From positions 1,054,001-1,118,000 of the forward strand of contig CP115556.1 in the NCBI GenBank assembly GCA_030168595.1: a DNA stretch of 64,000 nt, written 5' to 3'. The stretch is from Methanomassiliicoccales archaeon LGM-DZ1 (GTDB lineage: Archaea; Thermoplasmatota; Thermoplasmata; Methanomassiliicoccales; Methanomethylophilaceae). Positions within the stretch are counted from its first letter, which is position 1, and every line of letters begins with the position of its first letter. The notes beneath the pieces were generated by a model, which was given only the letters and a program-made list of their open reading frames with translations, was not told the origin of the DNA and ran no database searches. This document shows positions 5,702 to 63,066 of this stretch, piece after piece. The position numbers and the translations under genes were made by a program.

Positions 5702-6859
5702 ATGGTCGATTCCCTCCGTGCCGCAAGATATCCGTTCGTCTCCGACGCGGCCGCGTTCATCGACGCGAACGGCGTGAGCATAGAGGACCTCCTGGTCTCC
5801 CCTATGTACGCCGATGCCCGCCGCCGGGGGATGGAGAGGGTCATGGGGGCGCTGAAGAAGCATATGATTGAGGACGTCCCCCTGAACGTGTCGAGGGATT
5901 CCGAGAACTATGTGCATCTGATAGAGATCCTGTCGTACGGGTATGCCAGGATGATCGTGTCAGACATCAACGACCGCCTCCTCACCAAGAGGTACGCCCT
6001 CGCCGAGGCCGAGCGCGTGAACAGGATCCTCGAGGACGATGCCGAATCGATCGACGCCATTTCCTCGGAGCTGGACATCAGCGAGCACGTCAATCCGGAC
6101 AACACCGTGAGCATACATTTCGCCGACTACCTGCGCTACTCCGTGGCCATCGGCGCGGTCGAATGGAAGCTGATAAACCGCGATGTGAGGAACGGGTTCG
6201 TCATCATACCCAGGAAGGATTTCGGAAGGCTGGTGCAGAACGCGTTCCTCAGGAGGCTGGAGTCCGAGATCCCCCTGAATCTGACGGACAGCATGAAGAA
6301 GATGCTGTCGAAGAACTCCCAGCATGTCCGCCTGGCTCTGGCGGACCTGAAGGCCTCCCTCAGCCCGACCGGCGGGAAGGGCATCGACAACGACTGCCTG
6401 CCGCCCTGCATCAAGGCCATCATCAAGATGGCGCAGACAGGTCAGAACCTCCCCCACAGCGCCAGGTTCGCCCTGGTCTCGTTCATGCACGCGATGGGCG
6501 CGGACTACGATCAGATAATCTCTATCTTCGCAGAATCCCCGGACTTCGACGAGAGCAAGTCGAAGTACCAGATAATGCACATCACCGGCGAGCTGAACGG
6601 CGGGGAGGGGTACACCCCGCCCGGGTGCGGAGCGATGAAGACGGAGGGGATCTGCTTCAATCCTGACGGGCTCTGCGAGAAGGTGAAGCACCCTCTGAGC
6701 TATTACCGGCTCAAATCGCGCGATCTGAACTTCGTCAGGAAGCCCGAAGAAGGGAAAGACGGAGAGGGGAAGAAGGAGCGAATCACTCCTTCTTCCCTGC
6801 CTCCCCGCCCTCCTGCCCGGCAGAACGCTCGGCCTCGCCGAGGTTGCGCCAGGTCATGA
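5702..6859 (+). CDS. priL: DNA primase large subunit PriL
   Basis: 385 residues. PriL is the non-catalytic subunit of the archaeal primase. The C-terminal domain carries the four cysteines expected for the 4Fe-4S cluster: in CLPPC near residue 232, GCGAMK near 309, ICFNPDG near 318 and LCEKVKHPLSYY near 326. The first 200 residues are helical, with RYALAEAERV typical of the N-domain. The last 25 residues (Pro/Arg-rich) are encoded antisense to the end of the next gene, giving a 77-bp convergent overlap, and are probably not functional. The ATG follows an AGGCGATCAAA leader; the gene lies 10 bp after the radical SAM gene. Confidence 0.9.
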   Translation: MVDSLRAARYPFVSDAAAFIDANGVSIEDLLVSPMYADARRRGMERVMGALKKHMIEDVPLNVSRDSENYVHLIEILSYGYARMIVSDINDRLLTKRYALAEAERVNRILEDDAESIDAISSELDISEHVNPDNTVSIHFADYLRYSVAIGAVEWKLINRDVRNGFVIIPRKDFGRLVQNAFLRRLESEIPLNLTDSMKKMLSKNSQHVRLALADLKASLSPTGGKGIDNDCLPPCIKAIIKMAQTGQNLPHSARFALVSFMHAMGADYDQIISIFAESPDFDESKSKYQIMHITGELNGGEGYTPPGCGAMKTEGICFNPDGLCEKVKHPLSYYRLKSRDLNFVRKPEEGKDGEGKKERITPSSLPPRPPARQNARPRRGCARS

Positions 6860-7463
6860 GCACGCGCTGCACCGCGGTCAGGTTCCCGACCACGGCGAAA
6901 TAGAGCATCATGAGCTCGATCAGGGACATCGCGTGCCCGAAGACGTCGAAGGTGTCCTCCCATACCGCGGACATGATGAACTGGAATATGGGCACGGCGA
7001 AGCACAGGACGACCCTGTCGGCCCTGCCGAGAAGGCCGTCGTAGAGCCTCTTGGCGCCGACCGCCTGCGCCTGGGTCCCCATGTAGGACGTCAGCAGGAC
7101 GCCGACGATAGCGAGCATGCCGATGTAGTCGTTACACCATCCGCAGAGCGCGAACGGCACGATCATGAACATGTCCGCGTACCTGTCGAAGACGTGGTCC
7201 AGATAATCGCCCTTGACCGAGCATTTCCCGGCCAGCTTCGCTATCTTGCCGTCCAGGGCATCGAAGTACCCTGATACCAGCACCAGAATCGCTCCCAGAA
7301 GGAGCAGCCAGTGCTCGTCGTAGCTGAAATAGAACACGACGCCGCAGATGAGCGCCGTGATCAGCCCGAGCCAGGATACCGTGTTCGGGTTGACGTTGAT
7401 GAAGCGCCTCGCAACCGGTGCGATGAAGGGGTCTGCTTCTCTCCTGTGCTTGTCTAGAACCAT
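6783..7463 (-). CDS. CDP-alcohol phosphatidyltransferase, probably archaetidylinositol phosphate synthase-like
   Basis: 226 residues with about five hydrophobic segments. The family motif is at residues 68-93: D68, D71-G72, A75, G85, D89, D93. Arg after Ala is replaced by Lys. Archaeal relatives make archaetidylinositol phosphate from CDP-archaeol and inositol 3-phosphate, which would fit its place beside a PfkB kinase and two GT4 enzymes, although the substrate is inferred. Its ATG at 7463 overlaps the last codons of the Fap7-like kinase, so translation is probably coupled. The 3' end overlaps the convergent priL gene by 77 bp. Confidence 0.82.
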   Translation of the reverse strand: MVLDKHRREADPFIAPVARRFINVNPNTVSWLGLITALICGVVFYFSYDEHWLLLLGAILVLVSGYFDALDGKIAKLAGKCSVKGDYLDHVFDRYADMFMIVPFALCGWCNDYIGMLAIVGVLLTSYMGTQAQAVGAKRLYDGLLGRADRVVLCFAVPIFQFIMSAVWEDTFDVFGHAMSLIELMMLYFAVVGNLTAVQRVLMTWRNLGEAERSAGQEGGEAGKKE

Positions 7464-7981
7464 TCTTCCATCTCCCCTGACCAGTCCACGTTCCCGGGCC
7501 TATAAATATCCCCGTTCCCGCGGACGATTCTCTCTATTATGTCGGCCGCCTCCGCGGGGGTGCCGCGGGTGCAGTCTATCTCGTTCACCGGGATGTCGGT
7601 GTCCGTGCTCTCGCACAGGATGACGTCCAGCACCTCGGCCTGCACGTTCTCGAGCACCTTGCCGTCCGAGTAGCCGCGCTTCCTGAGCCTCTCGGCGAGG
7701 ACGGCGGGATCGCACCTGAGGACGATTATCCTGGAACAGTCGCACTGATGTGCCAGATGGGAATCCATGAACACGATCGAGTCCTTGCTCCGGTACGGCT
7801 CCAACGAGTCGTTGAGGGCATCCATGTCCACGTTGTAGGTGTCGCGGAGGACGTCCCTCTCCCCGAGCAGCCCGTACTCCCGGAGATGCCTGTTGATGTC
7901 CACCACCTCGTAGCCGCGCTTCCTCAGCTCCTCCGACACAGAGGTCTTCCCCGTCCCGGGAGTCCCGGTTATCGCTATCAG
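7454..7981 (-). CDS. Fap7-like adenylate kinase/NTPase (COG1936), apparent CTG start and TAG stop
   Basis: 175 residues from the proposed start. The Walker A loop GTPGTGKT is at residues 6-13. The family pattern continues with VVDIN, the RDTYNVD segment, SIVFMDSHLAHQC, IIVLRCDP and the LRKRGYS lid. Archaeal Fap7-like proteins act as adenylate kinase/ATPase in small-subunit rRNA maturation. No ATG, GTG or TTG lies in frame between the preceding TGA and the P-loop; the first GTG (7939) would delete the P-loop. CTG at 7981, 7 bp after the upstream PfkB stop, is the best start. The stop is TAG, the only one in the window; if read as pyrrolysine, the frame continues 30 more codons to a TGA at 7361-7363. 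Confidence 0.85.
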   Translation of the reverse strand: MIAITGTPGTGKTSVSEELRKRGYEVVDINRHLREYGLLGERDVLRDTYNVDMDALNDSLEPYRSKDSIVFMDSHLAHQCDCSRIIVLRCDPAVLAERLRKRGYSDGKVLENVQAEVLDVILCESTDTDIPVNEIDCTRGTPAEAADIIERIVRGNGDIYRPGNVDWSGEMEEWF

Positions 7982-7988
7982 CGGCGTC

Positions 7989-61725: not shown

Positions 61726-63066
61726 ATGTTCGTAGCTGCGGACGATACCGATTCGATGAGGGGCAACTGCACCACATATCTCGCGACCGAGATCATCCGC
61801 GTACTGGTCTACGAAGATGGGCTGGACCTCATCGGCTACCCGAGGCTGGTCCGCCTCAACCCAGCCATCCCTTGGAAGACCCGCGGCAACGGCGCTCTCG
61901 TCATGCGTTTCGGGAAAGGGACCGGGAAGTAGACGTTCATCGGGAACATCGAAGGCAGGGAGCTTTATTGCTGTGAGTCCCAGACGGAATGGGAGCCGGA
62001 CCCTGAGGCCCTCGCCGGACGCATCCGTCCCATCGTGGAGGAATACCACGATCCGGTCGATTCCGATCCGGGGATCGTCATAAGCCGCGTCCGCCCGGAC
62101 CCGTCCTTCTACCGGCGGGGCGTGACCCGCGTCATGAAGCGCTCCGATATCGAAGCGGAGATAGAATGCATCGGCGCCGCGAAGATCGAGCTCGGCTGCG
62201 GGCGCGGGATCATAGGGTGCGTCTGCGGCATGGCCTGGGTCCCTGAGGACCACACCTACGAGCTCCTGTCGTACCGCCCCCGTTCCAGGTGGGGGACGGA
62301 GAGGATCTTCGACCCCTCCACCGTGGCGCGCGCGGAGCATGAGATCCCAACCTCCTTCAACAGCTGGGACGACCGTCTGGCACAGTGCGCCATGGTCCCC
62401 GGGACCCCCTGCCCGGTCATGTACGGCTTCCGCGGCGACGTGCCGGAGGACCTCATCCGCGGGCATGATATCATCAAGACCGAGCCTCAGAGCAGATGGG
62501 TCATATTCGAGAGCAACCAGGGCACGGACGATCATATCATCCGCGATTTCACGCCGGAGGAGTTCATCCCGAACAGCTCCTACCTCATCCGCGGGACGGT
62601 CGTGTCCGAGCAGAGGATCCGCGGCGGCCACACCTTCCTCTCAATCGATACCGAATGCGGGAGGGTGGTCTGTGCGGCCTACGAGCCCTCCGGTCCTTTC
62701 CGCTATCTCCTCGACTGGCTCGACCCGGGGGACACCGTGGAGGTCATGGGGGAGCTCAGGGACAGCCCGAGGACCCTGAACCTCGAGAAGGTGCATGTTA
62801 TCTCCCTTGTAGATGAATGGGAGAAGGTCTCCAACCCCGTATGCCCGAACTGCGGGACCACGATGTCGTCCGCCGGCAGGGGCAAAGGCTACCGCTGCCG
62901 CAAATGCGGGGCCCAGGCGGCGCAGGCCGTGATGAAGAAGAAGGTCCGCCCGGTGGTCCTGGGATGGTACGAGCCTCCCACGGAGGCCCGCAGGCATCTT
63001 TCCAAGCCCCTCAAGCGCATGGGGGAGGTACAGCCCGTGGAATTCGTCGATTGCCGTAATCACTGA
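61726..63066 (+). CDS. tiaS: tRNA(Ile2) 2-agmatinylcytidine synthetase TiaS with in-frame TAG (probable pyrrolysine)
   Basis: 446 residues if TAG at codon 69 is read through. TiaS attaches agmatine to C34 of tRNA(Ile2) so that it reads AUA. The kinase-like N-domain has ADDTDSMRGNCTTYLA (residues 5-20) and RLNPAIPWKTRGNGA (near 43-57). After the TAG come the FLD/ferredoxin-like part (KIELGCGRGIIGC near 153), SFNSWDDRLAQCAMVPGTPCPVMYGFRG near 210, an OB fold, and a zinc ribbon (CPNCGTTMSSAGRGKGYRCRKCG, near 373-395). The C-terminal RRHLSKPLKRMG is highly characteristic. Without readthrough, only 68 residues would be made. All parts after the TAG look well conserved. Confidence 0.93.
61930..61932 (+). 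other. In-frame amber codon, predicted pyrrolysine site in TiaS
   Basis: TAG lies between GKGTGK and TFIGNIEGREL. The frame is uninterrupted on both sides with similar codon bias. No frameshift, alternative start or overlapping gene explains it. The position is in a region I expect to be variable in TiaS (between the RGNGA motif and the catalytic core). The first ATG after it would be at about codon 104. Confidence 0.85.

Follow-up and report, generated by a model that had tools for sequence, protein, structure and literature searches.

The TAG codon that ends the gene of a Fap7-like adenylate kinase in Methanomassiliicoccales archaeon LGM-DZ1 is, with a probability that we put at around 85%, a genuine and ancient stop shared by the whole order, locked by its overlap with the next gene, which would have survived the loss of TAG stops and would not be a new pyrrolysine site. 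The codon lies in the window, the whole stretch of 64,000 nucleotides that was analysed, at 1,054,001-1,118,000 of a genome consisting of a single contig of 1,768,094 bp with 60% GC. The features at this junction are the following:

7454-7987, minus strand: Fap7-like archaeal adenylate kinase gene (Pfam AAA_18; NCBIfam NF003012; Fap7 structures 4cvn and 4cw7)
7454-7456, minus strand: TAG with which the kinase gene stops, shared at this site by 83 of 89 genomes of the family and by 20 of 20 of other families of the order
7454-7463, minus strand: stop/start overlap of 10 nt, ATGGTTCTAG, where the kinase reads ...W-F-stop and the next gene M-V-L-D
6783-7463, minus strand: CDP-alcohol phosphatidyltransferase gene, the next gene (PF01066; NF040950)
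7361-7453, minus strand: hypothetical readthrough extension of 30 codons, ending in TGA and showing no sign of selection, judged by its lengths in relatives and by synonymous-site variability

The overlap has the consensus ATGGTNYTAG, in which the ATG is the start codon of the next gene, and the junction is read as ATG GTN YTA GAN in that gene and as TGG NNN TAG in the kinase. As the original prediction had described, 30 codons follow the TAG up to a TGA at 7361-7363, which closes the extension inside the next gene and in another phase. The next gene scored 149.8 bits with the NCBIfam model NF040950, under the cut-off of 180 bits, and archaetidylinositol phosphate synthase appears to be the nearest family for its product.

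The kinase belongs to the Fap7/adenylate kinase 6 (AK6) group, as it carries the Walker A P-loop GTPGTGKTS, and it matches Fap7 of P. abyssi (4cvn, 4cw7) with an E value of 4e-29, whereas its score with the NCBIfam "putative kinase" model NF003012 was 140.5 bits, under the cut-off of 152. Like the archaeal Fap7/AK6 proteins it is a P-loop kinase, and no difference from them bears on the stop; the alignment spans residues 5-176 of 179 and ends at most three residues from the TAG, supporting that this codon marks the natural C-terminus. In P. abyssi, a C-terminal extension of Fap7 contacts Rps14 (PMC4019466), and the C-terminal end of the kinase aligns with it, so a long tail might be disfavoured. 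The final residue is variable across relatives (F, Y, C, S, L or D) and the TAG after it is constant. At the other end, translation probably starts at ACG (7987-7985, minus strand), a position occupied by ATG in several relatives and by ACG in both genomes of the source species; the sole listed start further in, a GTG at 7939, would delete the P-loop. In one relative (G016) the kinase seems to start with CTG.

The conservation of the stop was studied in the 89 genomes of the family that have the kinase, all of which were read. TAG was found at the exact site in 83 of them, TAA in two, and the stop was lost in four. In the five other families of the order, TAG was present at the site in 20 of 20 genomes, and the start of the next gene lies exactly 7 nt ahead of it. 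Over the whole order, 103 genomes out of 109 end the kinase at the same base with TAG and only four have a sense codon there, these genomes being related and the counts not equivalent to independent events. Relatives ending in TGA or TAA at this place, the check attached to the original prediction, are not what the orthologues offer. Both genomes with TAA (G006 and G007) have the downstream gene out of the overlap register. The four losses, all among the 30 genomes of genus g9, are CTA to CTT or CTC changes in the overlapping Leu codon that add 11-29 residues, so some PylS-bearing lineages tolerate an extension, which speaks against our reading. Outside the order, a Thermoplasmatota genome keeps the same -7 register with a TTG start for the next gene, and in Methanolinea the pair meets at an ATGA-type junction where the stop is TGA.

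The same TAG is present where pyrrolysine is not expected. Genera g5, g11, g12 and g13 have no PylS over the family cut-off, and 10 of 12 such genomes carry the kinase TAG; in the other families 13 of 20 genomes have no PylS over the cut-off, and all 13 carry it. The absence of PylS was judged partly on drafts that may miss it, most of them 85-99% complete. In these 23 genomes TAG can only be a stop, which argues that the kinase TAG is independent of recoding, and the part of the original prediction by which this codon might also be sense through reassignment finds no support, while the other part, a true stop that is read through occasionally, agrees with the data.

The next question was what selection acts on. 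Of 87 genomes, 83 encode Leu3 of the next gene by CTA or TTA, codons that are rare at 16 other conserved Leu columns, and the third base of this codon has an identity of 0.91 in all genomes versus a median of 0.34 at other degenerate columns. In the genus of the source species the codon is CTA in 14 of 14 genomes, and its third-base identity is 1.0, compared with a median of 0.38 for the other columns. In the source genome CTA is a rare codon, accounting for 572 of some 41,000 Leu codons and for 5% within codons 2-6. The modal codon fraction reaches 0.85-0.91 at codons 2-3, whereas 72 other columns have a median of 0.45, and Asp4 is 99% conserved. By contrast, synonymous sites of the next gene are equally variable under the extension (0.39) and in the rest (0.35), and the extension takes from 2 to 98 codons among relatives and from 9 to 57 within the genus. 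These data support that the stop is kept, and not the tail, and agree with the earlier statement that the extension has no conserved domain. Its coding score is -0.86 per residue, versus +0.28 for genes, with neither continued coding nor homology past the TAG, and the pattern expected of a pyrrolysine protein, a sense codon or TAG with the same tail in relatives, was not found. A conserved back-up TGA at codon 10 of the extension was also considered, since the codon for Leu14 in the next gene has a third-base G in 79% of genomes, versus about 50-63% at other Leu columns; this signal was discarded because it is too weak and is confounded by phylogeny.

Such constraint could in principle come from the next gene itself, if the bases were kept for its translation initiation or for mRNA structure and the TAG were incidental, as the site falls within its first four codons. 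We regard this as the least credible of the explanations, given that the third base of Val2 (GTT, GTG, GTA or GTC) and the first base of Leu3 (CTA or TTA) vary across the order and only the A that forms the TAG is fixed, and that a stop (TAA) persists in the two genomes without an overlapping gene. Regulated readthrough, in which partial decoding as pyrrolysine alters the kinase C-terminus or the termination-initiation coupling to the lipid-synthesis gene, has in its favour the position of the TAG where stop and start overlap between the two genes of a conserved pair, and a tail at this end could matter in the light of the Rps14 contact of P. abyssi Fap7 (PMC4019466); the tail is not conserved, however, and the same TAG and overlap in the 23 genomes without PylS make pyrrolysine unnecessary as an explanation, so we hold it for very improbable. 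A bolder version, to which we give marginally less credit still, is that in PylS lineages the TAG would be a pyrrolysine-dependent switch, placing a basic tail on the Rps14-binding end of Fap7 and breaking the link between termination and the initiation of the archaetidyl lipid synthase downstream; if true, ribosome assembly and lipid synthesis would be tied to the supply of methylamines.

For a stop retained through the overlap, the mechanism that we propose is as follows. A synonymous change at the third position of the Leu codon of the next gene would abolish the kinase stop, TAA would need a change of Asp4 to Asn in the next protein, and TGA would be two changes away, passing through a sense codon. 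Because of these constraints, the TAG could not easily be swapped for TGA or TAA during the purge of TAG stops in pyrrolysine users, and selection for termination would have retained it while those lineages purged the others. The release factor aRF1 would still terminate at this TAG most of the time, and in PylS-bearing species some readthrough may occur into a short, non-functional and non-conserved tail. Termination here may well be incomplete, since the genome reads many other TAGs through and no context rule for this is known.

The use of TAG was then analyzed in the window and in the genome with a home-made gene caller based on a phase-specific Markov model, a rough tool on which the counts depend and which overlooked the next gene (6783-7463, ending in TGA). 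In the window it gave 66 genes, with TGA as the stop of 59, TAA of five and TAG of two. The second TAG belongs to the following gene:

61726-63066, plus strand: TiaS gene with an in-frame TAG at 61930-61932, with Pfam TiaS domains continuing across the TAG

As this TAG is internal, only the kinase is truly TAG-terminated in the window. In the genome, 1,489 of 1,661 called ORFs end in TGA, 137 in TAA and 35 (2.1%) in TAG, about half of these TAGs being internal. TAG makes up 19.9% of the stop triplets of non-coding DNA (2809 of 14136), so its scarcity is not compositional, and with that share the probability of finding at most one TAG among 66 genes is 8e-6. The scarcity of TAG stops, which had been noticed from the window, is real and genome-wide. 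Low TAG usage was rejected as a proof, by itself, of current recoding: in genus g12, without PylS, the sample that was read also showed almost no TAG stops besides that of the kinase.

The source organism encodes the whole set expected of a pyrrolysine-decoding archaeon, as had been anticipated. PylS (268 bits), PylC (287), PylD (188) and PylB (421) were all over their cut-offs, the first three clustered and PylB apart (663137-664192). The tRNA-Pyl was missed by ARAGORN and by a hand scan with strict stems; a relaxed hand scan near pylS detected a tRNA-like gene with a CTA anticodon (1703697-1703764) directly upstream of it. In two relatives (G008 and G038) pylB, itself a gene for pyrrolysine synthesis, ends in the pyrrolysine codon TAG, immediately ahead of the start codon (ATG) of the following gene, where the source genome has TAA.

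The 35 TAG-ending ORFs were sorted according to what follows the TAG. In 17 a long in-frame sequence follows with coding scores of 0.25-0.34 per residue (genome median 0.28), and in five more a weaker one, hence about 17-22 continue as coding sequence and about 8-12 look terminal. Pfam domains span the TAG in MtmB, MtbB, MttB, TiaS, an NAD-dependent epimerase, an AAA_11 helicase, a GT2 glycosyltransferase and a PCC domain protein, and a transposase and RNase H/Sel1 proteins also continue past it. Together with the Pyl machinery, these sequences make pyrrolysine the most likely meaning of TAG in many genes of this genome. In TiaS, the site is Lys in 21 of 28 relatives and TAG is confined to the source species (two genomes), where it is presumably a sense codon for pyrrolysine. 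TiaS is required for reading AUA codons, so that an enzyme central to tRNA modification would now depend on pyrrolysine. Two copies of a transposase (419049-420299 and about 1523959-1525209, minus strand) carry an identical in-frame TAG, suggesting that a mobile element depends on pyrrolysine for its full-length product, and two in-frame TAGs lie in a giant ORF (148152-160106, plus strand) about 3,980 codons long.

About eight well-supported genes appear to end in TAG according to this rough caller: the kinase, a cytidylyltransferase, TctA, thymidylate kinase, Tsr3, a radical SAM protein, a SIR2-like protein and a Sel1 protein; the remaining ORFs are four weak ones and an artefact of a CRISPR array. 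Thymidylate kinase, Tsr3 and TctA were discarded as conserved stops, since nearly all other members of the genus end them in TGA or TAA at earlier or different positions, which indicates that these TAGs are young. For thymidylate kinase (1168105-1168734, plus strand), the TGA of the relatives was lost in the source species and the TAG is now inside the next gene; readthrough, if it occurs, would add 131 residues.

A complete "Pyl code", in which every TAG means pyrrolysine, has reportedly been proposed for some archaea in a 2025 study, and here the kinase would always carry pyrrolysine and a tail of 30 residues. The 17-22 TAGs that are clearly or probably sense, the change from Lys to TAG in TiaS in the source species only, the joint location of PylS, tRNA-Pyl, PylC and PylD with PylB elsewhere, and the loss of the stop in the four g9 genomes all speak for it. 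We consider it unlikely, because it leaves the retention of CTA in 14 of 14 genomes of the genus without a reason, no selection is seen on extensions of such different lengths (9-57 codons), and aRF1 (1395139-1396380) keeps its GTE, NIKS, YRCD..F and GGQ motifs. In aRF1, the position that follows Glu55 (F56 in human, five residues ahead of NIKS) is occupied by Gln in genera g1, g6, g8, g9 and g14, with Glu in the source species, and by Tyr in every other genus that was read, and this may reflect tuning of UAG recognition or a single clade-specific change; the aRF1s of the own genus have the lowest family-model scores among full-length aRF1s.

The conserved stop that we favour can be compared with previous descriptions. 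In "Ca. Methanomethylophilus alvus" 1.6% of stops are TAG and 16 proteins with pyrrolysine were found beyond the methyltransferases (Borrel 2014, PMC4153887), a situation similar to the present one in Pyl machinery, amber depletion (2.1% of TAG-ending ORFs here) and the presence of Sel1 and GT2 proteins in both lists. In that work TiaS, which bears a TAG here, is not in the list, and relic terminal TAGs were not separated from sense ones as was done here by order-wide comparison. The ISO4-H5 genome report (PMC5011839) counts 46 genes that contain an amber codon in frame, one of them the adenylate kinase gene AR505_1784. In the genome that we take as ISO4-H5 (G013), the kinase is found 98.1% of the way along the chromosome, and gene 1784 of 1,817 corresponds to 98.2%; judging from this position, and not from the locus tag, that amber codon is probably the same kinase stop, counted there as in-frame whereas our comparison points to a conserved stop. 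As in other overlapping stop/start junctions (ATGA, TAATG and longer), one gene's stop lies within the start of the following gene and the register dictates the stop codon; unlike them, the -7 register ATGGTNYTAG forces TAG, the codon that was recoded in the order.

These results provide a rule to tell sense from terminal TAGs in pyrrolysine archaea, based on orthologues without PylS and on overlap with the next start, and the published "amber-containing" adenylate kinase would probably be corrected by it. The kinase TAG would represent a codon selected for termination inside genomes where TAG is used as sense, and may be suited for measuring residual termination at UAG.
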